Shown here piece by piece: positions 1,369 to 53,806 of a stretch of 64,000 nt of DNA; position 1 is the first letter of the stretch, and each line of letters begins with the position of its first letter. The notes beneath the pieces are model-generated. The model ran no database searches. It was given only the letters and a program-made list of their open reading frames with translations, and was not told the DNA's origin. A program made the translations under genes and the position numbers. Source of the DNA: Candidatus Bathyarchaeota archaeon (GTDB taxonomy: Archaea; Thermoproteota; Bathyarchaeia; Bathyarchaeales; SOJC01); the NCBI GenBank assembly GCA_023131225.1, contig JAGLZW010000019.1, positions 1 through 64,000 of the forward strand, in the 5' to 3' direction.

Positions 1369-2412
1369 ATGAGGCTCTCCTCACGCAAAGTTCTTAGCTT
1401 ATTTAAACGCTCTCTTGCTTTCAATAAGCCTCATCATGTACAGTGGATGCTTACACGTCGCTGTAATTATCGCTGCAAAAGCTGTGATGTGTGGCGAAAT
1501 CAGAAGCCTACAGCGGAGCTTTCCACGGAGGAAGTAATAGCGGGGCTAAATGTTCTTCGCAAAATGGGAGTGATAGAAGTTGTCCTCTCTGGAGGAAATC
1601 CCCTTCTACGTGAAGATATTGGAGAAATAATCGAATATGCCTCTAGATACTTCATCACAACAATTTATGACAATGGAAGCCAAGCGGTAAGAAAGATAAA
1701 TGCGTTGCAGAAAGCGGATTTCGTCGCCATATCTCTCGATACAATGAACGAGAAGAAATATGATTATCTGAAGGGTGTCCACGGCGCTTGGAAAAACGCG
1801 CTAAATGCTGTTCAAACTCTGCATACCCAAGGAATCACAGTAGGTGTCTCGCCCACAATTTCACAACTCAACATACATGAGATTCTGGATTTTACAGATC
1901 ATTTTACTGAAAGGGGAATTCCAGTCGTTTATTGTTTGTATCAGCATGATGCTCTTGACCAGCCAATGTTTCAAATAGGAGAGAAAAACAAAGAGCTTGA
2001 AATCATGGATAATGAAGCTCTCGCAAGAATCTGGGATGCGCTTGTCGAAAAGAAACAAAAATGTCAAGGAATTCTAATAACGAGAAAAATGCTAAACACC
2101 TTGAAAGGACTATGTTTAAATGGGCAAAGACCTTGGGAATGCAAAGCTCTTCAATCCTTTTTCACGATAGACCCTCTAGGCAAGGTAGCTGGTTGTCACC
2201 TTCAAAACCCCGTTACGACAGTCTTCGATTTGCCTGAAGTATGGAACAGCCAAAAATTTGAAACCTTGAGAAAGATGTACAGAGAATGCAAAAGCTGCTC
2301 CTACATGTGCTATATGTTCTATTCTCTCCACGCAAATGTCCAAGGAAATATCGAAATAATAAGAGACCAATGGAAAAACGCCAAAATAGTACTGCCTACT
2401 AAGAGACGTTGA
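1369..2412 (+). CDS. Radical SAM protein with C-terminal Cys-rich (SPASM-like) region
   Basis: A 347-aa radical SAM enzyme. The CNYRCKSC motif (Cys 32, 36, 39) is the CX3CX2C signature holding the 4Fe-4S cluster that cleaves S-adenosylmethionine. It is followed by a TIM-barrel pattern (VVLSGGNPLL resembles the GGE motif, AISLDTMNEKKYDYLKG). The C-terminal part has further cysteines (CKALQ, GCHL, ECKSCSYMC) like a SPASM/twitch region carrying auxiliary clusters. This layout is common in PqqE/HpnH-type enzymes and in many archaeal radical SAM proteins of unknown substrate. It is transcribed divergently from the upstream glycosyltransferase. The substrate is unknown. Confidence 0.85.
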   Translation: MRLSSRKVLSLFKRSLAFNKPHHVQWMLTRRCNYRCKSCDVWRNQKPTAELSTEEVIAGLNVLRKMGVIEVVLSGGNPLLREDIGEIIEYASRYFITTIYDNGSQAVRKINALQKADFVAISLDTMNEKKYDYLKGVHGAWKNALNAVQTLHTQGITVGVSPTISQLNIHEILDFTDHFTERGIPVVYCLYQHDALDQPMFQIGEKNKELEIMDNEALARIWDALVEKKQKCQGILITRKMLNTLKGLCLNGQRPWECKALQSFFTIDPLGKVAGCHLQNPVTTVFDLPEVWNSQKFETLRKMYRECKSCSYMCYMFYSLHANVQGNIEIIRDQWKNAKIVLPTKRR

Positions 2413-2463
2413 ACTTCAACGTTTGCTTAGACAAATAGCGTTCGCAAAAAATTAAAGTAAGAG

Positions 2464-2949
2464 TCAGAGCTTGTAGCCGATTTTTCTGAGAAATTCCTTT
2501 CTTGCCTTCACATCGCTTTCAGTTTCAATTCCTTTGCTTTTCAAACCATCAATTACGCCCAATACTCCCCTGCCTTTCCCAGTCTCACAAACAACAACCT
2601 GTAGTGGATTAGCTGTAGCGGCATAGATTGTGCACACTTCTGACACATTTTTGATTTTGCTTAAGACGTTTATGGGATAGGCGTTTTTGATGAAAATTAC
2701 AAAGCAGTGACCACAGCTGAGTTCGAATGCTTTTTGAGCAGCTAGATGCTTCAGTTCCTCGTCGTTACCTTCACGCCTCACCAGACATGGACCAGAGCTT
2801 TCGCAGAAACCTATACCGAATTTCACGTTTGGAGCAGAATCTACCAATGCCTCATAAAGATCTTCGACTGTTTTTATGAAATGTGCCATGCCTAGAATAA
2901 CATTGCAATCTTTTGCCACCTCAATCCTCACTACTTTGAGATCTAACAT
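2464..2949 (-). CDS. Adenosine-specific kinase-like protein (PF04008 family)
   Basis: 161 aa. It matches the archaeal/bacterial family once called DUF355 and now adenosine-specific kinase: FGIGFCESSGPCLVR, a GHCFVIFIKNAYPINVL core, then IYAATANPLQVVV and a GRGVLGVIDG loop near the end. This pattern of short glycine-containing loops is strongly conserved in the family, and its length is normal. Structures of family members bind adenosine nucleotides, but a physiological role is not established. It sits 54 bp downstream of the cysteine desulfurase gene on the same strand, so the two may be co-transcribed. The family call is confident, the biochemical function less so. Confidence 0.8.
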   Translation of the reverse strand: MLDLKVVRIEVAKDCNVILGMAHFIKTVEDLYEALVDSAPNVKFGIGFCESSGPCLVRREGNDEELKHLAAQKAFELSCGHCFVIFIKNAYPINVLSKIKNVSEVCTIYAATANPLQVVVCETGKGRGVLGVIDGLKSKGIETESDVKARKEFLRKIGYKL

Positions 2950-3003
2950 ATCTTGCCATTGCCTCTAGACTAGTACTGTATTCTCGGTATTTTTTATGTT
3001 TGG

Positions 3004-4176
3004 TTAAGGTTTTAATGGCGATATCGCTCTGAGTCGTTCTACAATTTTTGGCAATACCTGGAGAATGTAATCTATGTCCTCTTCGGTGTTGTACATTCCA
3101 AGTGAAAGCCTTAAACTGCCACGAGCTTCTTCCGGTTTTAATCCGATAGCGAGAAGCACGTGACTTGGCTCTCCAGACGTTGAGGAACATGCAGATCTTG
3201 AGGAGGCAGCTATTCCTTCTGTGTCGAGGCCTAGAACCACGGCTTCCCCTTCTATGAAAGAGAATCGGAAATTAGTGTTGTTGGGAAGTCTCTTTGTGGG
3301 GTGCCCGTTAAGGTATGCGGCTTTAATTTCTAACACGCCTTTTATCAGTTTGTCACGCAGGTGGGTAAGGCGTTCTGTCTCTGGCTTCATTTCTTTTTTT
3401 CGAAGTTCCACTGCTTTGGCAAATCCCACTATCCCCGGTATGTTTTCTGTTCCCGACCGTAAGCTGAATTCATGTCCACCTCCGTGTATTAAGGGCTCGA
3501 TTTTAAGGTCCTTGTTGATATATAGAGCACCTACTCCCTTAGGCCCATATAATTTATGAGCGTTGATTGTCATGGAATCAAAGTTCATCTCTTTGACATT
3601 GATTGGTAGTTTGCCGAAGCTTTGAACTGCGTCTGTGTGGAAAAGGGCACCGTGTTCATGGCATACCCTCGCGATTTCTCTAATTGACTGAATTGTTCCG
3701 ATTTCATTATTCCCGTGGACAACAGATACAAGTGTCACGTTTTCCTTCAGCGCCTCTTCAAGAGCATCCATTTTCAAAAAGCCATATTGATCAACTGGCA
3801 AGTATGTAACTCTAAACCCTTGCTTTTCCAGCCATTTTGCAGAATTTATTATGCAGTCATGATCAATTGTTGAAACAGCGATGTGGCATCGGGTTTTGCC
3901 TTCTTTGAAGGCATATCCTTTCAGTACTAAGTTGTTAGCTTCTGTTGCGCTTCCCGTGAATATCAATTCGTCTGCATCAGCGTTCATCAACTTCGCGATA
4001 GTCTCTCTGGACTTTTCTAAGGCCCTTTTTGCCTCAGCACCGAAAGAGTTTAAGGAGGAAGCATTACCGTAGAATTTGGTGAAGTAAGGTTTCATAGCTT
4101 CAACTACATGAGGGTCAACTGGTGTAGTAGCGGCATAGTCAACATAGATTTTTTTAATCGCGAACCACTCCTTCAA
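3004..4176 (-). CDS. Cysteine desulfurase (NifS/IscS family), complete active site
   Basis: A PLP enzyme of 390 aa that takes sulfur from cysteine to give alanine and a protein persulfide for Fe-S clusters and thio-modified RNA. The N-terminus IYVDYAATTPVDP is typical. The Schiff-base lysine is present in INAHKLYGPKG (Lys 208), the PLP-contacting HTDAVQ is intact, and the catalytic cysteine lies in SSRSACSS (Cys 330). All canonical residues are therefore kept, unlike the paralogue at 39.8 kb, with which it shares long stretches such as LNGHP(T/S)KRLPNN. It is probably the cell's working desulfurase. The adenosine-kinase-like gene follows on the same strand. No scaffold gene is adjacent. Confidence 0.93.
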   Translation of the reverse strand: MKEWFAIKKIYVDYAATTPVDPHVVEAMKPYFTKFYGNASSLNSFGAEAKRALEKSRETIAKLMNADADELIFTGSATEANNLVLKGYAFKEGKTRCHIAVSTIDHDCIINSAKWLEKQGFRVTYLPVDQYGFLKMDALEEALKENVTLVSVVHGNNEIGTIQSIREIARVCHEHGALFHTDAVQSFGKLPINVKEMNFDSMTINAHKLYGPKGVGALYINKDLKIEPLIHGGGHEFSLRSGTENIPGIVGFAKAVELRKKEMKPETERLTHLRDKLIKGVLEIKAAYLNGHPTKRLPNNTNFRFSFIEGEAVVLGLDTEGIAASSRSACSSTSGEPSHVLLAIGLKPEEARGSLRLSLGMYNTEEDIDYILQVLPKIVERLRAISPLKP

Positions 4177-4298
4177 TAAAAGATAAGGGAAGATGTTTTA
4201 AACTATTCTTTCAAACACCTGAAGAGTTACCGCAGCAAAATTTGGTGCTTTCCATAACCAATATAAAAAAGCGTGTGTGTATGTTTCATGATAGAGAG

Positions 4299-6244
4299 AT
4301 GAAGAAGCTTTATTTTTTGTCACTTGTTCTTCTGCTAATTCCAATAATCCCAATTGGCGGAAATATAAAAGGATCTGGTGACGCTCAAAACCTAAGCACT
4401 ATCGTCCACACCGTCCCAATAAACGTTGTTTTTGTTGGTTTCAAAGAAGAAGTGGTTGACACCAATTTCATCGATTTGAATATCCAGAAAAGCCATCAAT
4501 TCAGCCACGGAGATTATACGATGCATTATAATTTTAATGTCAGCTACCGATTTGCGAATTCTTCATATTACACAACGTTGAGAACTTTCATCTTAGCAAA
4601 TTCTGTGAATGGCACGGATACCACGTCAGCATTGAATGGCACGGCTTTGCAAACCCAAAAGGTAACAGGTGCAAAAATGTCGATTTTCCTGTCTCAATCG
4701 GGCAGAGCGATAAATGCTGTGGCGGTTGAAGAATGGTTTGCGGCAAATCCCTATGTAGCGGGTTTAGAGTCCTCATATTGGTTCTACGTTATGAATTTCA
4801 CCGAGTTCGATTCGCCAGATCATAGTTTAGAGCACTGGTATAACACCACTGAGCTGGATTTTGAGGCAAACAACATGCGTGACTTCTGGAGACTTGAATG
4901 GGATAATGCTTTAAACCCAAACGTTAAGTTTCCTTATGCTTGCTTCACTTCTCAGAGCAGAGTTTTCTTCATTGACCCTTCTGCATTTCAATGGTATCTT
5001 ACGTGGGCGAGAATTTGGTGGGGGCTTTCAGTAAGCGGACCCAAGTATGACTACTACTATGAAGACTTGGACGAATTCTTGGCTACACATGATGTTGGCA
5101 CTAGCCAAGGAAAAACCGATTTAGCCTACTATCTCGCAGGATGGATAGACGACACGGTAACAACATGCTTGGTCCTGATCTCTGGACCAGCATCGATACG
5201 TCTAAAGCTGAATCCATGTCAATTCAGGTACTTGTCCTTAATAATGCTTCAGATTCCGGTTACTCAAACGAGGTCATGCGCTGGATAATTAACTCCACGT
5301 TCGCCGAAGAGGCAATAGCAGATTTGGCGCCGTTCATAGATGTAGAAGTTATAGTGGAGTTTCAAAATCTTTCCAATTACCCTCAATTAGAAGCTATTTT
5401 TGACGATGCGGTAATCGAGAAACAGAACGGTTGGACATACTACGATAGATATCAAGTTTGGAACGGTCTCTACAGTGTCAGAAATACGTACTTCAACTTG
5501 AGCGCAGCTGACGTGGTAATCAATGGCTACGTGTTCTTAGAAAAGAATATGAGCATGATGATCTACGGCGGAGAATATACAGGGTTAGGTGGAGTGGGAC
5601 AAATATTGGTAATGAAAGAGGTGGGGCGTTATTTTCAAGAAGATGGAATTTCGTCAAAATCCGGGCTTGGACTGGTTTTAATCCATGAAGCTGGTCACAA
5701 CCTTGGCTTTCCTCACACTTTCATTCATGGGGTTGCCTATGCGGGAGACTTTGCTTTCGATGTTATGGGCTACTACCCTTACTCGTTTTTCTTTACTCAG
5801 ATGAGGAAGGACTGCTTTAGAAGACTAGTGGTCGATTTCAGGGTTCTCGGTTTGCAAGGGCACATTGATGAAGACCTTGCTCTTTATAGCCGCAAGAACT
5901 CGACATCCATCATAGAAGAAGAATTCCACAAAGTGTACGCGAAGATTAATGAAACACTTCAACTTCACGACGAACTACGATACCTTGAAGCTTACGACAA
6001 AATTCTGGAAGCAGAAACCTTGGAACTAAGCCTGCAAGAGCTGATTTGGATTTACCTCTGTGACTTAGATAATGATGGAGTAGTAAAAATCTACGATGTT
6101 GTCTTGGCGGCGGCAGCATACGGCTCAAAACCAGGCGACGGCAATTGGAATCCAAGCGCAGACTTAATCCAAGACGGTGTAATCGATATATACGATATTG
6201 TCGTCATAGCCAACTACTATGGTGAGAAGTGCCAGGAGAACTAG
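4299..6244 (+). pseudogene. Secreted metzincin-type protease with C-terminal dockerin, split by a frameshift
   Basis: Two overlapping frames together give one protein of about 650 aa. The first frame starts with a signal peptide (MKKLYFLSLVLLLIPIIPIGG, ATG 4299; an upstream ATG is at 4281) and stays coding-like to about 5155. The product then continues in the -1 frame as GNNMLGPDLWTSIDTSK. One missing G in the short run near 5156 would restore WIDDTGNNML. The second part carries HEAGHNLGFPH (about 5684-5716), matching HExxHxxGxxH of metzincins, and a likely Met-turn (DVMGYY). The end (about 6066-6235) is a duplicated Ca-binding dockerin-like module (DLDNDGVVKIYD, DLIQDGVIDIYD), known from extracellular complexes that bind cohesins. 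It is either a real broken gene or a one-base assembly error. Confidence 0.8.
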
Positions 6245-6319: not shown

Positions 6320-6412
6320 ACAGAGAGATAGAGAATAGGTGATTAAAGATTTTCTTTCTGAAAATGCTTATAATTAGCAATAGTTTATTCTAATTTCGCG
6401 ACAGTGAACTGC

Positions 6413-6487
6413 GGGCCGGTAGCTCAGCATGGCTGGAGCGTTCGGCTGATAACCGAAAGGTCGAGAGTTCAAATCTCTCCCGGCCCA
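6413..6487 (+). tRNA. tRNA-Ile (anticodon GAU)
   Basis: A full cloverleaf: acceptor GGGCCGG/CCGGCCC, anticodon stem TTCGG/CCGAA with loop CTGATAA (anticodon GAT), T arm GAGAG-TTCAAAT-CTCTC, discriminator A and no encoded CCA. No intron is seen. Its last 20 bases plus three flanking bases are repeated at 13208-13230, so it may have served as an integration target. Confidence 0.95.
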
Positions 6488-6490
6488 CTT
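6468..6490 (+). repeat. Direct repeat copy 1: 3' end of tRNA-Ile (att-like)
   Basis: Twenty-three bases covering the T loop, the 3' acceptor strand and three following bases of tRNA-Ile, identical to 13208-13230. Integrated archaeal elements commonly end in such a copy of a tRNA 3' end made by a tyrosine integrase. The sequence identity is seen directly; the integration history is inferred. Confidence 0.7.
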
Positions 6491-6580
6491 TTGGGGTATA
6501 GTCTTCTATAATCATTCTCCAAATAGCTTTTTATGGTTCCGTGATTATTCTTTCTTCTCGTATGTTTGGGAGAAGTTGGT

Positions 6581-9500
6581 ATGCAAAAAACAACCAGTAT
6601 TTTTGTAGGTTTTGCACTAATAATTTTGTTATCAGGTGTTGACATTCAGGCTGCCGTTCAGCCTACGTTGACAAGTGCGAGCTCTATAATTCCGCCAAGA
6701 ACTGGGTCCAATTTGAGGGAGCTTGTTGAAGAGCTTATCAAGGCAACCACGAATATGACTGATACCGATGGTGATGGTCTTCCAGATTCGGTGGAGGCTG
6801 TCATCGGCACTGATTTCAACAGCACTGACTCGGACTTTGACTTGTTGTATGACTACGATGAAGTGCAGAATGACTCAGACCCGCTGGATCCAGATTCGAA
6901 CAGCGACGGATTGCCCGATTACAACGAAGTGTGCAACGTGACTTCTCTGGATATCGACGGTGACAACATCTCGAATGTATGGGACTTTGACAATGATGGA
7001 GATGGTTTGAACGATGAAGTCGACCTGTCGCCTTTCTCCAAGTCTAGCATGCACGATGCGTTTCATTTTGACATAAACATGAGCGGCAAGCCAACCTACA
7101 TAACGTTACAGTTGAAGCCTAGAAACCCTGAGAATTTGAAGCTTTACTATCAGTTGTGGGACTGGCCTTACGATCGTGAAGGCTCCATGAAGGATATGGA
7201 CAACTCAAAGGAAGACATTAAAGTCGTTCCCCAACTCAATGTAACTGTTAATGTCCCACCGAACCAATCAGATGTTGCAGACTACGGAATTCTTGTAACC
7301 GATAATGGCATGCATGTGCCCGTGTATCCTGTCTGGGAAAACGACGCTATCGTTGCCTTCACTGCCCTAGTATTCTACAATGCTTCTTCTCCAATGACTC
7401 TCTCGATGGATGCTGAACTCATGTGGCGTGTCATTGGGTCCAATGATGAAAAAGCCACTGCTTTAAGGACATATGATGGATTCTATGTTTCTGTTGCGTC
7501 CAATGGTGTTGTGGTTGCTAATGCAACTCAAGTTACCAGTTTTGAGACGTTACAGTGGATCGAACTAGGCGAGAATAAAGTGGCTCTCAAGGTTCATGAT
7601 GGACCGTATCTTTCTGTGATTGGTGATGGTTCGATTATTGCACAAGGCTATGAGATAGGCAGCATGCAGACCTTCGAGTTAATTAAAGGCAATGACACGG
7701 TGTCTCTAAAGGCGTATAATGGCAAATATGTTTCAGTTGCAGCGGACGGAACTTTTGTTGCCCGCAGCGATTCTATAGGGAACATGGAAAGTTTTGAACT
7801 TGTCGATAGGGACTATCTTAGTGAGTGGACTATTCTCGCTACATACAATGAGCCCTTTATGTTAACTGGGTTTACCATTAGTGAAAGCTATGGTTCGGAT
7901 CTCGGGTTGTTCTATAGCGAGGATAAGGATGAAACGATTAGGGCTAACATGTTGCTGGGTTACGATTTTCTGAGGAATTCAACAACACATCTATCCGACA
8001 TGCCGTCAATCCTTGAGAACTACAATGTAAATGTTGAAAGTCTACTTGGTTCATTTTCGAACAAGGACGCGGCCCTCGTGGAAATGAGCAACACTATGAT
8101 ACCTCAAGCCTTGAGTTCATTGCCTCACAGTCAAGTCTTTCCTGTAATTATCTGTATTGAAGAGAACCTCACAATGGTTGAGATGTCTCAACTTGTTTCC
8201 AGCTCATACATTTTGGGAGACTGGTATTCTGTAGATTTGGTTGTTGAGCTAGAAAACGCGTTAATAAATTCGAGGATGTTGAAGACCAACTTCTATAATA
8301 CAACTGGCTACGTGGCACTTGAGATAGAGGATATCATGCGTCATGTAGATGGTTGGCAGTTGAGTGAAGAAGCAGGTTTTAGCGCGTCAAGTCTGATTTT
8401 AATGTGGAACACGGGCGAACAGTCTATCACCAGTAAGGGTTCTCAAGAAATTGTTGCTCAAGCTCCTGAGGCATTCTTGGCGGTTCCTCTTGCCTTTGAG
8501 AGTTTGATGCTTGCTGCTCGGGGAGGGCTAGGGCTGAAGGCGTATCAATCTCTAAAGTTCTTGAGAATGAAAGGTTGGACTAGTGCCTCCATAGCGAAGA
8601 TGTTGAAGACAGGAGGCAAGACTGGCGGATTTAGACTTTGGGCGAAGATGTGTAACAAATTGACTAAAGCCAAGCAGGGATGGGCTGGAATCAAAGGGCT
8701 AAAAGTGCTGAAAAATGTGATGAAGGGTTTGGCAGTTCTCGGTGTAATCCTGGATGTAGGTTTATCAATTTTGTCAGGGTTTATGATTGCTGATCAGATC
8801 GGGGGCCATCTGGGTAAATCGATTGGTGCATCATATGGCATGATCGCCGCTACCTACGCTATTATCTATACAGGTATTCTCATTGCCATTGGACAAATCC
8901 CATATGTTGGTTGGATTATTTCGCTCACTATTGTCATAGCTGACATTTTCGGCGGTTTTTCAGATGCCTTGATGGGGTGGCTGATGGATCTTTTTGGTCC
9001 TGATGACTTGTCAGTAGTAACGCCTTGGTTGGAAGACATAAACGTGACCAACGTAACTGTTTGGGACAAGGACAATAATGGACTTGACGTTGGAGACCGC
9101 ATCAGTATTACAGTACAAACAACAAGCAAGGTTAACGTTACGTCTGGTAGAGAGACGGGGTGGGCTGCGAAAAGCTGGTATCGTCCTTACCTAAGTATTA
9201 GTGCTCCGAGGGGTTCCTTCTCAAATACGAGTATGACTGGGATTCCGCCAGAAGATACTTGGATTGTGGAGCAGGGAGTCAATTGGAAGACAGAGGAGTA
9301 TGAGACAGGTGCTTGGATAGAGCCTGGAATTGGTATGCCCAACTTTCCTGTGAATGTTCGGATAAACTTTGATTATGGACTTTGGCATATTTGGGAGCAT
9401 TTCATTTTCTATTTGGTTTACTGGGAATGGTGTCGTCATGAAGACCTGCAAACAGGTGTGTCATCATCTCATTTCACTACGTTGCGTTATGATGTGCTTC

Positions 9501-12500
9501 CTGGAAGCATTGATGATTTTGCGAGATGGAGAGGCGTTACACCGTTGGATCACGATGGTGATGGTCTTAGGGACAGTAACGAGACGATAAGTGATCCTTG
9601 GAAATATGACACTGACGCTGATGGATTGAATGACAAGTTTGAGGTTGAAACTGGAACTGATCCAAGGAAGTACGATACGGATGGTGACGGGTTAATTGAC
9701 AAGTTTGAGTTTGTTTATGACACGAACGCAACAAACAGGGACACTGACGGCGATGGGCTCCCCGATTATTTGGAGGTCGCAGGATGGATGATTGGCTTCA
9801 ACTATACTGGCGATCAGAATAAACCGTTTACGATGCGTGTTTACTCTGACCCAAGGGTTCCGGACACTGATGGCGATGGAGTGGATGATGAAGCAGAATA
9901 CTGGAGCGATTTGAATCCGCGGTCTCAAGACACCAATGGTGACGGAATAAAAGATGTTGCAAAACAGGGGTCTCTTACACAAATTTGGTTTGAAACTAAA
10001 TGGGAAATACCCTTGGACATTGAACACACTGTGAGTGATATGGCGGTTGACTCTAATGGAACCGTCTATGTAGCACTACTTCAGGACTCTGAAATTCTGA
10101 AGTATAGTTCAGACGGGACTTTAAATGCGACATGGGAAGACAAAATAGGTGTTCCCTTCTCTGTCGCTGTCGATGAAGAAAATGGTTATGTTTACGATTT
10201 CTTTGGGACTTGGGTTTACGACCACTATTTTTATGGCATCCAAACTTTCGACTACAATGGAACTTGGATTAAAACATGGGGTCAAGGTGATCGGCCAATA
10301 GCGTTAGATGTTGACGCAAACGGCTATGTATATGCTGCCAGAGGAGCTCTAGATTTTGGGTGGCCAAAACGAGACATAATGATTGTCGAGAAGTACCATT
10401 CTAATGAGACACTCATAACTTCATGGGGTAATTACGGTCCCGCTCCAGACCAGTTCAATAGAATTGTTGGCATAGCAGTTGATGGCAAAAACGGCTACGT
10501 CTACGTCATCGACAAAGCAACATCTGACTTCCCAGACAGGGAAGATCGCATCGCAAAGTTTGATACTGATGGAAACTGGCTCACTGACCTGCCATACACT
10601 TTCAATAATCCCACAGGAGTAGAAGTTGACTCAGAAGGATTCGTTTATGTTGCAGATACAGATAATCATCGCGTCCACAAATTCGACTCTAACGGAATGA
10701 ACATAACATCATGGGGCGAATACGGTCTCGAAGATGGACAATTTGTAGACCCCTACAGATTGGACGTTGATGCGGAAGGAAACATCTACGTACTTTCATG
10801 GGGCTCTGTGCAACCGAATACATGGCCTGCCTGCCGGGTACAGAAGTTTTCCCAAAGTCCTACCCGCCCAATCAGGGAGGATGTCCTTCCAGACAGGGAT
10901 GGCGACGGACTAGAAAATGACGAAGAAAATTCTGGTTGGACAGTGGTCTTCACGAATACAACTGGCACTTTCACGATTTCAGTGACTAGTGATCCTCTGC
11001 TAAATGATACAGACACTGAAGGTCTAACAGACTATCAGGAATATGGTCTATTAACAAATCCGAGGGACCCAGACACCGACGATGACGGATTAACAGACTT
11101 TGAAGAATGGAAAGGATTCCCTTCACAAACAAATCCGAACCACTGGGACACAGACGGGGACGGACTAGGAGACGGCGTCGAAATCACATATGGCAGCGAC
11201 CCAACAAAAATCGACACCGATGGCGATGGCCTATTAGACCCCGAAGAGTTCCTGTTCAACTCAGACCCTAATGACCCAGACACCGACGATGACGGGCTCT
11301 CAGACTATGAGGAGAAACTTTTCAATTCAAGCCTCACCAACCCAGACTCAGACGATGACTTCATGTTTGATGGCTATGAAAAAACCGCAGGCACTGACCC
11401 GCAAAACAGCGACACGGACAACGATAACTTACCAGACGGCTACGAGATACTTCTAGGCACGGATCCCCTGAGCAACGACACTGACGGAGACAACCTCTCC
11501 GATGGCACTGAAGTAAACTTGTGGCTTAATCCCCTGTCTAACGATACAGATGGCGATGGGCTCTTGGATTCAACAGAACTGGAAAAGGGCACCAACCCTT
11601 GGAACAGAGACAGCGACTTCGATGGCATACCCGACGGCGAAGACCTTGATTCGAACAGCACACATGTGCCAAACATAATCCTGTCATTCGATCCAGACAA
11701 TGCCACTAACGAGTTCGCAGGGAAACTTGCGCAATACACCAACGTAACAATTGTCTCAAAAGATGAACTTCTGATGAACTACACAGATGCACGTTACATA
11801 GTGCTTGTTGGAAGACCCGACGGAAACGGAACAGTTGGAACCCTCATCCACGACCTTCTGCTTGATTCTGGAGATGCCCTGACAAAGATGACTGAGTCGG
11901 ATGCCAATCGGTTCGCAGTTAGACACGGATTATGGAACAACACTCAGACGATAATAATGCTATCGTATCCCTACCCCATGGACCACGTCAGAGTGCTTGA
12001 CATCCTAAGAAGCAAAACTGTGACAATACTGTCAAACTCGGCTATAATTGAGTATAACATGAGCGTAGCAGTGAGTTATCCTGCTGGAGGATCCTTGAAC
12101 CACTCCGACGTTTCATATAATTTCTTCAAGATAGATGAAATCGACACGGTGAAAGCAACCGACTCCATTATCAATGCCATTCTGGAAAAAGCAGTAAAGC
12201 CAAGAGTTGAAATCAACAGATACAACGCCTCCACAACACCCTTCGAACTCACCCACACATCTGGCCTAGCCTCCAACGAAAAAGCAGTAGGAAAGTACTT
12301 CCAAATAAACGTAAGCGAAGACATCCAAAACAAAACCTCAGAGATCGTAGAAGCAGCGCTTATCCAAATATACTACGCAGAGTCCGAACTGGATAGAACT
12401 GGAGACGGAGACGCCAACGACCTTGACGATTTCCTTGAAAGCACGTTAACACTGTACTTCTTCGATGAATCCACTGGCTCATGGACAAAACTATCTGGAT

Positions 12501-13009
12501 ATTTGGATGGGGTGATCGACGTTGGGGTTAACACTACGGATATTGAGCTTTATGGCAAGAAATACGCGGGCTATGTTTGGGCTTACGTATCGCACTTCTC
12601 ATTGTACGGGCTCGCAGGTCTTACGGGTAATCGTCCCCCAGATGTTTCAGACGCACGTCCAAGCATAGAATACCTTTGGTCGCCAAACCACAAATTCGTT
12701 GACGTAACCATCGAAGGCGTCACAGATCCAGACGGTGACGAAATTACAATAACTATACTCGGCATTACAAGCGATGAGCCCACCTCTAAACATGCGCCAG
12801 ATGCATATGGAGTTGGAACCAGCGTAGTCAGCTTAAGAGCCGAACGACTAGGAACAGGCAATGGTAGAGTCTACGTGATCACGTTTGTAGCCAGCGATGG
12901 AAGAGGCGGAGAAACCATAGGCACCGTGACTGTCTACGTTCCACACAACCAAAAAGGATGCATTTGCATAGACGACGGGCAAAAGTACGACGCTACAGAG
13001 ACAAACTAA
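6581..13009 (+). CDS. Giant secreted Ca-binding surface protein with NHL repeats
   Basis: About 2140 aa; no single known family covers it. The ATG at 6581 follows a GGGAG site and opens a signal peptide (QKTTSIFVGFALIILLSG); a TTG at 6566 is the alternative. In order (numbered from the TTG): thrombospondin-type-3-like Ca-binding repeats (DTDGDGLPD type, about 67-154); two to three fascin-like trefoil repeats (YDGFYVSVASNG, YNGKYVSVAADG, about 295-415); a long hydrophobic segment (about 720-812) with several possible membrane spans; more Ca repeats (about 995-1130); an NHL-type propeller (FVYVADTDNHRVHKF, about 1150-1425); a third Ca-repeat block (about 1445-1695); and a C-terminal Ig/cadherin-like domain with DPDGDEITI. 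No sorting signal or C-terminal anchor is clear. It is probably extracellular, in adhesion or in the cell envelope. Confidence 0.88.
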   Translation: MQKTTSIFVGFALIILLSGVDIQAAVQPTLTSASSIIPPRTGSNLRELVEELIKATTNMTDTDGDGLPDSVEAVIGTDFNSTDSDFDLLYDYDEVQNDSDPLDPDSNSDGLPDYNEVCNVTSLDIDGDNISNVWDFDNDGDGLNDEVDLSPFSKSSMHDAFHFDINMSGKPTYITLQLKPRNPENLKLYYQLWDWPYDREGSMKDMDNSKEDIKVVPQLNVTVNVPPNQSDVADYGILVTDNGMHVPVYPVWENDAIVAFTALVFYNASSPMTLSMDAELMWRVIGSNDEKATALRTYDGFYVSVASNGVVVANATQVTSFETLQWIELGENKVALKVHDGPYLSVIGDGSIIAQGYEIGSMQTFELIKGNDTVSLKAYNGKYVSVAADGTFVARSDSIGNMESFELVDRDYLSEWTILATYNEPFMLTGFTISESYGSDLGLFYSEDKDETIRANMLLGYDFLRNSTTHLSDMPSILENYNVNVESLLGSFSNKDAALVEMSNTMIPQALSSLPHSQVFPVIICIEENLTMVEMSQLVSSSYILGDWYSVDLVVELENALINSRMLKTNFYNTTGYVALEIEDIMRHVDGWQLSEEAGFSASSLILMWNTGEQSITSKGSQEIVAQAPEAFLAVPLAFESLMLAARGGLGLKAYQSLKFLRMKGWTSASIAKMLKTGGKTGGFRLWAKMCNKLTKAKQGWAGIKGLKVLKNVMKGLAVLGVILDVGLSILSGFMIADQIGGHLGKSIGASYGMIAATYAIIYTGILIAIGQIPYVGWIISLTIVIADIFGGFSDALMGWLMDLFGPDDLSVVTPWLEDINVTNVTVWDKDNNGLDVGDRISITVQTTSKVNVTSGRETGWAAKSWYRPYLSISAPRGSFSNTSMTGIPPEDTWIVEQGVNWKTEEYETGAWIEPGIGMPNFPVNVRINFDYGLWHIWEHFIFYLVYWEWCRHEDLQTGVSSSHFTTLRYDVLPGSIDDFARWRGVTPLDHDGDGLRDSNETISDPWKYDTDADGLNDKFEVETGTDPRKYDTDGDGLIDKFEFVYDTNATNRDTDGDGLPDYLEVAGWMIGFNYTGDQNKPFTMRVYSDPRVPDTDGDGVDDEAEYWSDLNPRSQDTNGDGIKDVAKQGSLTQIWFETKWEIPLDIEHTVSDMAVDSNGTVYVALLQDSEILKYSSDGTLNATWEDKIGVPFSVAVDEENGYVYDFFGTWVYDHYFYGIQTFDYNGTWIKTWGQGDRPIALDVDANGYVYAARGALDFGWPKRDIMIVEKYHSNETLITSWGNYGPAPDQFNRIVGIAVDGKNGYVYVIDKATSDFPDREDRIAKFDTDGNWLTDLPYTFNNPTGVEVDSEGFVYVADTDNHRVHKFDSNGMNITSWGEYGLEDGQFVDPYRLDVDAEGNIYVLSWGSVQPNTWPACRVQKFSQSPTRPIREDVLPDRDGDGLENDEENSGWTVVFTNTTGTFTISVTSDPLLNDTDTEGLTDYQEYGLLTNPRDPDTDDDGLTDFEEWKGFPSQTNPNHWDTDGDGLGDGVEITYGSDPTKIDTDGDGLLDPEEFLFNSDPNDPDTDDDGLSDYEEKLFNSSLTNPDSDDDFMFDGYEKTAGTDPQNSDTDNDNLPDGYEILLGTDPLSNDTDGDNLSDGTEVNLWLNPLSNDTDGDGLLDSTELEKGTNPWNRDSDFDGIPDGEDLDSNSTHVPNIILSFDPDNATNEFAGKLAQYTNVTIVSKDELLMNYTDARYIVLVGRPDGNGTVGTLIHDLLLDSGDALTKMTESDANRFAVRHGLWNNTQTIIMLSYPYPMDHVRVLDILRSKTVTILSNSAIIEYNMSVAVSYPAGGSLNHSDVSYNFFKIDEIDTVKATDSIINAILEKAVKPRVEINRYNASTTPFELTHTSGLASNEKAVGKYFQINVSEDIQNKTSEIVEAALIQIYYAESELDRTGDGDANDLDDFLESTLTLYFFDESTGSWTKLSGYLDGVIDVGVNTTDIELYGKKYAGYVWAYVSHFSLYGLAGLTGNRPPDVSDARPSIEYLWSPNHKFVDVTIEGVTDPDGDEITITILGITSDEPTSKHAPDAYGVGTSVVSLRAERLGTGNGRVYVITFVASDGRGGETIGTVTVYVPHNQKGCICIDDGQKYDATETN

Positions 13010-13023
13010 GGGCGCACTCGAGT

Positions 13024-13146
13024 TTAAAACACTCCGTATCTTTTCCACTGAGCCATCAAGCAAAACCAGCGGAATCTTTGCCCGAAGGCATCAACAAGCT
13101 TCTCTGCAACTTGCCTCGCAAGAGTGATTTTCTCATCGTAACTCAA
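13024..13146 (-). pseudogene. Possible remnant of a small nucleotidyltransferase
   Basis: Forty codons from a TTG read LSYDEKITLARQVAEKLV followed by DAFGQRF. This resembles the leading helix of minimal nucleotidyltransferase (MNT/HepT-type toxin-antitoxin) proteins just before the GS...D catalytic motif. In a neighbouring frame the DNA then reads LDGSVEKIR, close to the usual LFGSVARG, so a frameshift would have broken the active site. It lies between the giant gene and the tRNA-Ile-like repeat. The match is short and judged by eye, so this is weak evidence. Confidence 0.3.
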
Positions 13147-13207
13147 TCTATATTTATTGTTCTTAACGGCTGCCTAAGTTCGCGATTGCATAGAAAAAAA
13201 GGGGGGT

Positions 13208-13230
13208 TTCAAATCTCTCCCGGCCCACTT
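13208..13230 (+). repeat. Direct repeat copy 2: duplicate of the tRNA-Ile 3' end (att-like)
   Basis: Identical over 23 bases to 6468-6490 and in the same orientation, but not part of a complete tRNA: the bases upstream (an A run then a G run) do not form the anticodon arm. With copy 1 it encloses about 6.7 kb that holds essentially only the giant surface-protein gene. Confidence 0.7.
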
Positions 13231-13275
13231 CAGAATTTTTCCTGGACCATTGTTTCAGATTTTTTTAGGGGTTAC

Positions 13276-14673
13276 TTACGTTTTTTGAAGAGGGTCCAAA
13301 CTGTATTTTTTTCCGTATCTAATCGTCTGAACGTTACTGCTTATCTTTTTGAACAATTGCTGGTTTTCCGTGTGTATCGGAAAAATTTTCTTTGGCTTGA
13401 TGTAGTTGATTAGACCCGTTAATTGATCTCTGTTTAGGTGGCCGGAAGCATGCAGTTGATGAAACTGTATTTTAAAATGGTTGAGCCAGTTATGCATTAC
13501 CCGATCTTCAATGTCTTCTTCACTGTAAGGTTCGCTCATGCTATGGATAAAATGGCTGCCTGGTTTCGGCTTAATGTCAATTAGCTCTGCAAATTGATGA
13601 AAATCCAAATCCATGACCAGTTTGCTCTGATTTTTGTGCACAAATTCATAGGTCGCCATTTTTTCTATGAAATCTCGCTCCCAAACATAATAGTCCTTTT
13701 CCTCGAACCCTCCGGACTTTTTCCGTTTGTAATAAACCAGAATATTCTTGTCCTTAAACGGGTCAGGAAGATCAAGGCGTCTATCTTCCACAAGTCTGCT
13801 TAGCAAATGAGCGGTTTTTAAAGAAATAACAATCTTTCTATCGTTGCTCTTAGCCACATTGTAGAAACTCCTGAACCTGTCCATATCCCTACTGTAACGA
13901 GTAACAAACACAATCTTATCCGTTGAGGAAACAACCTTGCCGCTTAGTTTCTCAACCTGCAACTCAGAATAGTTCTTTCGTTTTTCCTTCTCGACCATTT
14001 TAGTACCTTCGCATATCATGGCCACAGGTTCCGATTCACGCGCTTTGTCTGCGAATTCTTCAGTCATATCATTCCTAGGACCGTGAGCCCTAAGATCTCC
14101 AGTGTACACGATTGTGCCTTCAGACGTATGAACTAAAAAGCCGTACGCAGCAGGGATTGAATGATCAACATGAACAGGCTCCACCACTATTCTGCCCACG
14201 TTAATTTTGTCTCCAGTTCGAAACGTCTCATACCAACGCTCTCCGTAACTGCAGAAACTGCTGGTCTTCTCCATCGCTTCCAAAAACAGTTTGGTGCCTT
14301 CACCAAGATACACAGGTATCTCTGGGTCTAAAAACTCGATATGTTTCACGTGATCGAAGTGGGCGTGGGACAAAAACACAGCGTCAAACCTTGGCTTCAC
14401 ATAAGGAACATCCGTGAACTGCAGTTGCTCCTTCGCATACAAACCTTTCAATTTTGGCAGCAAACCAAACTCAAAATAATCCCCTAACCCGTTGATGGCT
14501 CGTGGAGACAGCCAACCCGAAAAAAAATCACAGCCCAATGTGAAAGATTGACCGAAATCCAAGAAAACCCTGACACCGCCATCTTCTAACAAGACCTTGT
14601 TTCCACCAATCTCATCCACTCCGCCGTAAAACGTCAAACTCACCATTCCAAACAGACCACCATCAATACTCAC
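13276..14673 (-). CDS. Beta-CASP metallo-beta-lactamase nuclease (RNase J-like)
   Basis: 465 aa (or 456 from the ATG at 14646). The metallo-beta-lactamase core is clear: DEIGGNKVLLEDGGVRVFLDFG, the HAHFDH metal motif (residues 103-108), VDHSIPAAYGFLV and TGDLRAHGP. A beta-CASP cap region follows, with a C-terminal HASGHLNRDQL and a late IFPIHTENQQLF containing the usual HTE motif. Archaeal members are 5'-3' exonucleases and/or endonucleases acting on RNA, and this length fits. Sequence alone does not separate RNase J from related beta-CASP groups; the N-terminal KH domains of the archaeal CPSF-like group are absent. The stop codon is 46 bp from the tRNA-Ile-like repeat. Confidence 0.82.
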   Translation of the reverse strand: MSIDGGLFGMVSLTFYGGVDEIGGNKVLLEDGGVRVFLDFGQSFTLGCDFFSGWLSPRAINGLGDYFEFGLLPKLKGLYAKEQLQFTDVPYVKPRFDAVFLSHAHFDHVKHIEFLDPEIPVYLGEGTKLFLEAMEKTSSFCSYGERWYETFRTGDKINVGRIVVEPVHVDHSIPAAYGFLVHTSEGTIVYTGDLRAHGPRNDMTEEFADKARESEPVAMICEGTKMVEKEKRKNYSELQVEKLSGKVVSSTDKIVFVTRYSRDMDRFRSFYNVAKSNDRKIVISLKTAHLLSRLVEDRRLDLPDPFKDKNILVYYKRKKSGGFEEKDYYVWERDFIEKMATYEFVHKNQSKLVMDLDFHQFAELIDIKPKPGSHFIHSMSEPYSEEDIEDRVMHNWLNHFKIQFHQLHASGHLNRDQLTGLINYIKPKKIFPIHTENQQLFKKISSNVQTIRYGKKYSLDPLQKT

Positions 14674-14834
14674 TCAACTACACAATTCAAACGATTCTTC
14701 TAATCATTTAGCAATTCTAAACTTAAAACCTTAATTCAGAAACAATCAACCTAAAAAAGGGCGCGCACATTCTTTCTTTATTGATTTTGTCATGCTCATA
14801 CGCGTACCTGTTCATGTCGCATCCTTATACCATA

Positions 14835-21473: not shown

Positions 21474-21640
21474 TATTTGAAGGGATGGTAAGGTCAGCCT
21501 TTATTGAGGGAACTGCGGCTAGAAATCGTACACTTAGAAATCACTGCAAGAAGTTGAGCAGTAATTGTGGAAACATTCATTTCCGCTGCACAGTAGAGAC
21601 ATCTCCCGCATTTCCCCTTTTTTTCTGTAAAAACCAGCGT

Positions 21641-22435
21641 TTAAGGTCGTGTTAGCTCTGTGAGTACTCTCAAAATCTCTTGGGCGCTGACTCCTATTGT
21701 GGTTGAGACTTTGTTGATGTCTTCTTTTGTGAAGCCTTGTATTGTTTTTCTTGCTTTTTCTTTGGGGTAAGTTGAGAAAAGCAGATTTTTGATTTGGGGT
21801 AATGCAATGCCAGAGTACCAGAGCAGGGCGTAGATGTCGGCGATGTCTTTGATTCGTTTGTTTTCTTTGTCTCTGTGGGGTGCAGAGTTCAGTTTCATTG
21901 CTAGTAATACCTGTGGTTTTGGCAGCAATACTGTTTTTTCGAAAAGAGTGGCAATGGTGTACATTTTGTCTTGGAAAACTAGTGAGAGAAGTGGTTCATC
22001 TATTGGCACGAAGCCTAACAGGTTCTTTATTTTTGGATGTATATAATCTACAATGGGGTCTATGTATAGTTGGAAGATTTGATACATCGGGAGCTTAGCT
22101 GACTCTTCTGGGGTTAATTCTTTCCCTGTGTCAATGTCGAAATCTTTGAGAAGCCTGAAACTTACTGATCTGAAGCCCATGTTTTCAATGGTTTTTATTG
22201 CAGCCATGAATTGTGATTTTCTAAGCTGCTCTTCGTTCCATTGTTTGCCGATGTGGAAGCCGATGTCAATGTCTCGTGATCCGATGTATTTTCTTCCATT
22301 GGCTTTTTCAAAGTTTGTGTTTATGATGTGGTAGGTAGCCCATCCTCCCATAAGGCATGTCGAGTCTGCTAGTTGCTTGAAGATTTTTCCCAGCTGTTTT
22401 TCTGAGGTTTTAATTTCATTGGGTTCGTATAACAT
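21641..22435 (-). CDS. AbiEii-like nucleotidyltransferase (putative toxin)
   Basis: 264 aa. GGWATYHI followed by YIGSRDIDIGFHIG gives the nucleotidyltransferase signature (GG/GS then DxD) of the AbiEii/MNT-like superfamily. KIKDIADIYALLWY downstream matches the 'K..D..D...L' pattern of AbiEii proteins. Known AbiEii toxins transfer nucleotides to tRNA or other targets and halt growth; whether this one does so is unknown. It overlaps the upstream gene by 20 bp, so the pair is translationally coupled, as expected for a type IV-like AbiE toxin-antitoxin module. AbiE family membership is by motif, not full alignment. Confidence 0.65.
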   Translation of the reverse strand: MLYEPNEIKTSEKQLGKIFKQLADSTCLMGGWATYHIINTNFEKANGRKYIGSRDIDIGFHIGKQWNEEQLRKSQFMAAIKTIENMGFRSVSFRLLKDFDIDTGKELTPEESAKLPMYQIFQLYIDPIVDYIHPKIKNLLGFVPIDEPLLSLVFQDKMYTIATLFEKTVLLPKPQVLLAMKLNSAPHRDKENKRIKDIADIYALLWYSGIALPQIKNLLFSTYPKEKARKTIQGFTKEDINKVSTTIGVSAQEILRVLTELTRP

Positions 22436-23030
22436 GTTGCTCTACCTTGTCGAGTAGTTTTTCCGCGGCTTCCATACATACTCCGCCCTCTTCAAGTAGG
22501 TCAACGATTAGTTGTGGAATGCACACAATAGTTAAGCCTTGGCGTTTGAATGAACGGTAGAAGACGTGAGAGTTGGCAATGAGCAGTCTTATATTACCTT
22601 TTCCAACTAGGCCTTCTTTTGTTATTAGTTTGTGCCATTTTTCCTTGTCTTCTGCTTTGATGTATAGGTCGGTGCGTGAAGGAAAGAGGTAACGCTGAAC
22701 GAGGTTTTCTGCCTGATAGGTCGTAAGTGCATATGGCAGTTTTGCTTTTTTAATTAGACTAATTGGATCTCTATGCATGTAATCCTTTTTTTCGCGGTTA
22801 ATCCTGACTTGAAGCCAATATTTTAAAAGACCAGTATAGTTTACGACTTTTGTCCCTTTTACAAGTTCTAACGTTTCTAGTTTGCCAAGCAACTCGTGAG
22901 TCCAAGGGAATGAGCATTGCGCCTCTTTGGCTAACCTGTATTTGGTCAGTGAGCCCTTTGGCTCGGTTAAGAGGACCCTTATTATTCGTTCTCGAAGTAT
23001 TCCTCTGCGCTTCACATTTGTCACCTGCAT
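22416..23030 (-). CDS. AbiEi-like winged-helix antitoxin/repressor
   Basis: 204 aa. The N-terminus reads as a winged helix (RERIIRVLLTEPKGSLTKYRLAKEAQCSFPWTHELLGKLETLELVKG). Then comes a domain beginning with LPYALTTYQAENLVQRYLFPSRTDLYI, typical of AbiEi-type partners of nucleotidyltransferase toxins, in which 'ALTTYQAENLV' is a recurring phrase. Antitoxins of this group bind inverted repeats at their own promoter; two palindromic repeats sit 30-86 bp upstream. The start at 23030 has no clear ribosome-binding site, so it may be leaderless or start at the GTG two codons later. Confidence 0.65.
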   Translation of the reverse strand: MQVTNVKRRGILRERIIRVLLTEPKGSLTKYRLAKEAQCSFPWTHELLGKLETLELVKGTKVVNYTGLLKYWLQVRINREKKDYMHRDPISLIKKAKLPYALTTYQAENLVQRYLFPSRTDLYIKAEDKEKWHKLITKEGLVGKGNIRLLIANSHVFYRSFKRQGLTIVCIPQLIVDLLEEGGVCMEAAEKLLDKVEQHVIRTQ

Positions 23031-23059
23031 ACATCGGTAAGCTATATTAATTGGCAGAG

Positions 23060-23116
23060 TTGCCGATATATCGGTAACGTTGGAGCTTTAAATATCTTGC
23101 CGATATATCCGCTACG
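23060..23116 (-). promoter_or_regulatory. Probable operator: two repeats upstream of the AbiE-like operon
   Basis: Two related 20-bp elements, 23060-23079 (TTGCCGATATATCGGTAACG) and 23097-23116 (TTGCCGATATATCCGCTACG), repeat with a 37-bp period. The first contains a perfect 12-bp palindrome, CCGATATATCGG (23063-23074). A further half-site, ATCGGTAA, lies at 23033-23040 just before the start codon. Position and symmetry suit cooperative binding by the winged-helix antitoxin. Confidence 0.6.
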
Positions 23117-23392
23117 TAAGTCCGGTGTGCTGGACTTTTTAGGTCACTTTGGAGCTTTTAAAGTGCGCCAAGATGAGGTATCTCAGGTAATTTATACGCA
23201 CACGAAACTACGGAGAAAGCTGGTAGCCCAATCTTTCTCTGTTTTTGTGTTAATTTCCGCGACGTACATTATGCTCATTATCCATTTAGAACAACCGTTG
23301 CACGCGCTAAGCTATGTACACTCAGAAGCCTTGAGCCAAGTTCTTGCTGCAAAGCCAAGCCTCAATACTCTAGCGCCAAAGGCGAAAACTTA

Positions 23393-23419
23393 GAGGGGGG
23401 GGGGAGGGGAGGAGGGGGT
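23393..23419 (+). repeat. G-rich low-complexity tract
   Basis: A run of about 27 bases made almost wholly of G with single A interruptions (GGGGGGGGGGAGGGGAGGAG then GGGGT). It could form a G-quadruplex. The 23031-23625 interval otherwise holds the operator repeats, a tRNA-like fragment and the TrpB2 promoter; I see no gene in it. Confidence 0.75.
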
Positions 23420-23474
23420 CGGTGTTTCCTCGCAAGGAGCATACGCGCGAACAGAAACTGTTATACCATAGAAT

Positions 23475-23508
23475 TGGTGGGCCGGGAGAGGATCTGAACC
23501 CTCCCTAC
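23475..23508 (-). pseudogene. 3' fragment of a tRNA (T arm, acceptor strand, CCA)
   Basis: On the minus strand the sequence reads as a T loop (GGTTCAGATCC), then CCGGCCC plus ACCA. This is the same acceptor strand as tRNA-Ile, with an encoded CCA. The T stem has an extra base and a mismatch, and no D arm, anticodon arm or 5' acceptor (GGGCCGG) is found upstream. It looks like a decayed tRNA or an old attachment-site remnant beside the toxin-antitoxin operon. Confidence 0.5.
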
Positions 23509-23570
23509 AGCGAAGGGCGCACCTGTTGCTATCTCAAAGTGTATTTGTTGATATGTTTATCTAACACAAC

Positions 23571-53594: not shown

Positions 53595-53695
53595 GCTCTA
53601 CCACTTAATTTCGCTCGTATCAGCGGCTATCTGTCCCTTATTCCCTTTTGAAAGTTGTAGATATCCAGTCACTAGCACTGGTGTTTGAATTTTGG

Positions 53696-53806
53696 CGCCG
53701 GGGAGAGGATTTGAACCCCTGAGGGTCAAAGACCCACCGGCTGACTAGCCCACTTCTAAACACTATGGATCTCGAGGCCGGCGCATTACCGCTCTGCCAC
53801 CCCGGC
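53696..53806 (-). tRNA. tRNA-Ser (anticodon CGA) with a 28-nt intron
   Basis: The minus strand gives acceptor GCCGGGG/CCCCGGC and discriminator G, typical of tRNA-Ser. The anticodon stem CCGGC/GCCGG encloses CTCGAGA, with CGA as anticodon, plus an intron. A long variable arm (TGGGTC-TTT-GACCC) confirms a type II tRNA. The T arm is AGGGG-TTCAAAT-CCTCT. The intron (53743-53770) sits after position 37, the canonical archaeal site for the bulge-helix-bulge endonuclease. Transcription ends near 53696. Confidence 0.92.

Follow-up and report, generated by a model that had tools for sequence, protein, structure and literature searches.

A 6.7-kb segment encoding a single giant secreted protein lies in the 3' end of a tRNA-Ile gene in a Bathyarchaeota genome

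A giant-gene segment at tRNA-Ile(GAT)

The window, by which we mean the whole 64,000-nucleotide stretch of DNA analysed, comes from a Candidatus Bathyarchaeota archaeon (G000) and contains a tRNA-Ile(GAT) gene at 6413-6488 (+), called by ARAGORN, that is the integration target and is intact after the insertion. The 23 bp running from its T-loop to 2 bp beyond its 3' end, TTCAAATCTCTCCCGGCCCACTT (attL core, 6468-6490, +), are repeated perfectly and in the same orientation at 13208-13230 (attR core, +), confirming the direct repeat reported in a preliminary description of this DNA. With up to three mismatches allowed, these are the only two copies in the window; none would be expected in shuffled sequence. 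The preliminary description would have been undermined by many unrelated copies around the genome, but their distribution proved non-random: there are just two more, both on contig C1, one exact (C1:3019-3041) and one with two mismatches (C1:9319-9341). The C1 copies lie 6.3 kb apart in tRNA-free surroundings with two secreted-protein genes between them, and the sequences upstream of the two are similar to one another, with further relatives at sites in three other genomes (G001, G008 and G009).

The interval between the cores is filled almost entirely by one intact gene, which takes up 95% of the segment. This gene (6581-13009, +; ATG at 6581 in an ORF spanning 6566-13009) encodes a giant secreted protein of 2,142 aa with a signal peptide-like N-terminus, a fascin/FRG1-like beta-trefoil at residues ~300-410, NHL repeats at ~1148-1410, and TSP3 calcium-binding repeats at ~1475-1690. 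No intact homologue exists in 60 relatives, including G001, which have just TSP3 or NHL repeats in common with it, and the gene was not found elsewhere in the genome or in the viral contigs searched. The preliminary description had listed the giant gene and a possible nucleotidyltransferase remnant as the only contents; the giant gene is indeed the sole gene of the interval, and the remnant is plausible but tiny and lacks profile support. It is a short, frame-shifted stretch at 13011-13164 (-) that by eye resembles the start of such a gene, with the translation ..KYRLSYDEKITLARQVAEKLVDAFG / ..VLLDGSVEK.., and Pfam gave no match there for the one ORF tested, which lies on the opposite strand. 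Consistent with the earlier remark that no integrase is visible, there is no PF00589 match in 6491-13230 and no other ORF of note. Nor did we find a replication or viral gene in the segment, or a match to Cas1 or a transposase among Pfam models. By these searches the segment lacks the tyrosine or serine recombinase gene that characterizes a site-specific element integrated in a tRNA gene.

To the left of the tRNA pair in the window, at 4242-6244, two overlapping frames, possibly frame-shifted, appear to form a single secreted metallopeptidase with a dockerin-like C-terminus. The window also holds a tRNA-Ser(CGA) gene with a 28-nt intron (53693-53806), and a tRNA-Ile gene in G004 has a 46-nt intron (L047 2417-2538).

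The sole same-genus relative compared, G001, has an empty site. By blastn, window positions 6352-6490 match G001 2043-2181 and positions 13208-14766 match G001 2159-3720; the two G001 matches adjoin and overlap by precisely the 23-bp core, a pattern characteristic of site-specific recombination at a tRNA 3' end, whether by integration or by excision. The inserted segment is thus 6491-13230 (+), 6,740 bp including one core copy, and it is absent from G001, where the tRNA-Ile locus (97% identical) carries a single 23-mer, with both breakpoints exactly at the core edges. In G001 the tRNA-Ile directly adjoins the gene for a metallo-beta-lactamase-fold, RNase-like protein that flanks the segment on the right in the window (13276-14673, -). 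The comparison proposed in the preliminary description, a search for an empty tRNA-Ile site with one repeat copy, bore out its suspicion. The GC content of the interval is 45.5% versus 41.2% and 41.8% in the flanks. The segment has a precise insertion point, an empty counterpart in a close relative, and the tRNA 3' end directly repeated on either side with the tRNA itself intact, all as found in tRNA-integrated elements. A false join of unrelated contigs at a repeated tRNA end could in principle mimic this arrangement, given that the assembly is in 50 pieces, with several repeat copies close to the ends of contigs; but both flanks are collinear with one contiguous region of G001 and an intact 6.4-kb ORF lies between them, and we give such an artefact hardly any credence.

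That no intact giant gene exists in 60 relatives favors gain of the segment in this lineage, one same-genus relative having been compared. In the named relatives, almost all of them Bathyarchaeota MAGs, homologues of the flanking metallo-beta-lactamase gene are present, and no tRNA-Ile was found beside them within the fetched flanks, yielding no further empty sites. As a separate observation, most relatives have a divergent tRNA-Arg(TCG) next to tRNA-Ile; G001 lacks it and has an integrase C-terminal remnant in its place (L019 1500-2100).

A dispersed repeat family with tRNA-like cores

Just left of the attR core lies a short sequence, ATTGCATAGAAAAAAAGGGG... (13185-13207, +), that resembles the arm of a repeat on contig C1 (C1:3018-3094, copy A). 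Positions 13185-13204 match the outer arm of copy A at 19/20 positions, a score reached by 0/500 shuffles and by none of five other repeat copies tested, and the 20-mer of the right-end arm occurs exactly at just two places in five genomes, the window and copy A. Between arm and core the window is 30 bp shorter than copy A and lacks the conserved GATATCTCC, so what ties it to the wider family is the outermost 20 bp, which it has in common with one copy. The right end thus resembles copy A in shortened form, a likeness that is real but involves that single copy.

The family to which copy A belongs consists of repeats of ~70 bp in which a GATATCTCCACTG arm is joined to a core resembling the 3' ends of tRNAs (Ile, Leu, Arg, Asp). 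The left half reads GAAAAAATGGGGAGTTTGCGGGAGATATCTCCACTG and the right half TGTGGGGAGGGTTCAAATCCCACCCCCCGCAC, the latter resembling a T-arm and tRNA 3' end; half-copies exist too. In a sequence-model census, G000 and G001 each gave at least 40 matches and G009 gave 28, counts that derive from selected stretches and searches and are incomplete. In more distant families the matches are mainly tRNA 3' ends, apart from a few full repeats in G017 and G018. The likeness to tRNAs exceeds chance: 26/49 cores lie within 3/12 mismatches of a tRNA 3' end (shuffled mean 13.8, maximum 21), and the closest, with zero or one mismatch, correspond to Ile, Leu, Arg(CCT), and Asp tRNAs. The idea that the repeats are a conserved structured RNA was rejected, there being no Rfam family and 0 pairs from RNAalifold on 40 copies; pairing of the T-stem and acceptor is barely above permutation.

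Several other arrangements were seen among the repeats. In G009, a tRNA-Ile is followed by six co-oriented repeats with tRNA-like cores of differing type (L020, G009:C3, 1750-14990), an array that has its tRNA anchor in common with the window segment. The core of a tRNA-free repeat in G001 and the ~30 bp that follow it (L042 7252-7305) match the core and downstream flank of this G009 tRNA-Ile (89% over 54 columns), which suggests that flanks were swapped at this core at an earlier time. At three loci (L110 7700-7900, L121 6310-6500, and L134 15444-15612) one flank appears on opposite sides of a T-arm-like half repeat, as if flipped around a hairpin. A sequence of ~160-300 bp is common to window 23210-23511, L018 9050-9342, and L019 1423-1600; in the first two, a dockerin-like secreted-protein gene ends ahead of it, and the sequence itself finishes in the tRNA-Ile-like repeat.

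The repeats coincide with changes in gene content. Neighboring repeats (no more than 10 kb apart) are co-oriented in 54/59 pairs (p ~2e-11), and of the 47 internal ends in alignments of G000 with G001, 18 have a repeat within 60 bp where ~2 are expected (p ~1e-12), 2.3% of the sequence lying within that distance and a repeat in either genome being allowed; this last p-value serves as a guide only, because some alignments are not independent of one another and loci were picked for their repeats. In the clearest case, locus L108 of G000 and locus L120 of G001 are collinear apart from 7.47 kb, which in G001 lies between a co-oriented pair of repeats and in G000 is missing; the G000 junction falls within GGGGAGGGTTCAAATC of the repeat. 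Other breakpoints sit on the outer edge of the arm that forms the left half, not in the core (cases 4, 7, and 8), so one crossover point is inadequate for all events.

Could such changes reflect ordinary homologous recombination between dispersed repeats, adding or removing segments with no dedicated recombinase? The repeats are short, numerous, and co-oriented, and RecA-type deletion between direct repeats is possible; but just 23 bp are shared at tRNA-Ile, and an exact match of ~16 bp in the 7.47-kb case, and while a deletion can be explained in this way, the arrival of DNA at a tRNA with a clean site in the relative hardly can. We therefore regard this explanation as improbable for the window segment.

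The repeats separate cassettes enriched in large secreted proteins. Comparing ORFs of at least 150 aa inside and outside repeat-bounded intervals, we found an N-terminal hydrophobic segment in 30/88 ORFs within them versus 98/519 others (p = 0.003). For ORFs of at least 500 aa, the corresponding figures are 10/13 and 17/54.

A second segment in the window, 21584-23567 (-; 1,984 bp), is also absent from G001. It has a left-arm copy at 21589-21629 and, in the same orientation and 20-90 bp inside its other end, a tRNA-3'-end-like copy at 23479-23547; its two genes (21641-22435 and 22416-23030) are HTH and nucleotidyltransferase-like. Its ends form a near-perfect 12-bp direct repeat, AACATT[CT]ATTTC, of the sort expected if a casposon or another transposon-like element targeted tRNA 3' ends and the 23 bp at tRNA-Ile were a target-site duplication. 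Such an origin for the giant-gene segment is nevertheless very unlikely, since no Cas1 or transposase Pfam match was found, no terminal inverted repeats were noticed, and the 23 bp recur at repeats away from the segment.

Candidate recombinases and the origin of the segment

Archaeal integrases have attB regions in the 3' end or T-stem-loop of tRNA genes (PMC8371274). The G000 genome has ~20 matches to general PF00589 models, none of them inside the segment; intact integrases lie, for instance, at C29:46309, C2:31663, and C25:59896. In G004, a tRNA-Leu (intron-containing and called Phe by ARAGORN) has behind it the C-terminal fragment of an integrase, then cargo, then an arm-plus-core repeat whose core equals the tRNA-Leu end over 29 bp, TGGGTTC to CACTTTT. 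In G000, a broken integrase, genes for two large secreted proteins, and a repeat come after a tRNA-Leu, and the tRNA-Ile of G001 has an integrase C-terminal remnant immediately upstream. Because of these remnants, a tyrosine recombinase is the natural candidate for acting on the repeats, though integrase fragments beside tRNA ends are mostly decayed. In G001, 5/14 integrases lie within ~3.3 kb of a repeat (repeat matches of at least 40), a proportion too weak to count as evidence.

The giant-gene segment sits precisely in the 3' end of tRNA-Ile(GAT), is bounded by a 23-bp direct repeat, and encodes only a giant secreted protein. It is probably a cargo-only element that was put in by a tyrosine recombinase acting in trans and that is one unit of a tRNA-anchored family; we speak of a cargo-only element rather than a complete autonomous one because no recombinase is present in the segment. 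The enzyme would be encoded elsewhere in the genome. A circle carrying the arm, the T-loop core, and the 3' end of tRNA-Ile may have recombined with the tRNA gene, and recombination through such a circle would leave the tRNA restored. In our model the crossover between a site like C1:3018-3094 and the tRNA-Ile 3' end would fall within TTCAAATC. We infer that the segment belongs to a wider element family in this Bathyarchaeia family, whose ends combine an A-run/GATATCTCCACTG arm with a tRNA-3'-end-like core and whose members may bring in, remove, or swap cassettes that frequently encode many large secreted proteins.

The preliminary description had suggested either a decayed element or cargo left behind after loss of the integrase. 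Both are compatible with the data, given that the right arm falls 30 bp short of its C1 relative; a cassette inserted in trans fits equally well. In its strict form, this explanation holds that an ordinary tRNA-targeting plasmid or virus lost its integrase and other genes to decay, and that the likeness to the repeats reflects tRNA sequence and common att arms. It accords with the known behavior of archaeal integrated elements (PMC8371274), with the integrase remnants adjoining tRNA-Ile in G001 and tRNA-Leu in G000 and G004, and with the shortened arm and the gene remnant. Yet no replication or viral gene was found and the giant gene, which makes up nearly all of the segment, is intact; moreover, the arm match to copy A involves non-tRNA sequence, and locally co-oriented arrays are unexpected from a lone relic. 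On this balance we judge a decayed autonomous element possible but somewhat doubtful.

The dozens of tRNA-derived marks at gene-content changes hint at a shared cassette-shuffling system. The cargo-only reading could be extended to an integron-like system in Bathyarchaeia, with tRNA 3' ends plus a common arm as its sites and the giant-gene segment as one cassette. One or a few tyrosine recombinases would then cross over at the universal T-loop GGTTCRAATC, and cassettes of large secreted proteins would move between tRNA genes and dispersed sites all over the genome. We think this extension unlikely. If the inferred family of tRNA-anchored elements is real, it would offer uncultured sediment archaea a testable route for swapping large secreted or surface proteins, its recombination sites (arm plus tRNA 3' end) could be used to find cassettes and the recombinase, and the scattered tRNA 3'-end fragments in these genomes would be explained.

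Comparison with known systems

A limited, keyword-based literature search found no prior description of the repeat family. The closest known systems are archaeal elements integrated into tRNA genes by tyrosine recombinases, including the pNOB8-type, SSV-type, and thaumarchaeal elements. The segment shares with them a tRNA target from the T-loop onward, a direct repeat, a restored tRNA, and an empty site in a relative. Unlike them, it has no integrase, its cargo is a single giant secreted-protein gene, and its ends resemble a large dispersed family.

The repeat family also invites comparison with integrons and CALINs, including archaeal integrons (PMC9668308). Like these, it is locally co-oriented, bounds cassettes of one to a few genes that are gained or lost between relatives, and mostly lacks a neighboring integrase. 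At least two co-oriented sites less than 4 kb apart, a feature of integrons and CALINs, occur in the repeat family (for example at L113, L109, and L020) and not in the window segment. In contrast to integrons, the cores resemble tRNA 3' ends, genes lie on both strands, and breakpoints are found at more than one position; folding is what defines attC sites, whereas the repeats showed no conserved fold. Attempts to detect attC-type hairpins in the repeats gave no consensus structure, a weak pairing signal over permutation, and no Rfam match; because such folding was sought and not found, the repeat family should not be filed as an integron.

The known tycheposons and their kin are bacterial and in intact form encode their own recombinase. 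With these and other cargo-carrying, tRNA-anchored elements, the segment has in common its anchoring at a tRNA gene and its variable cargo.
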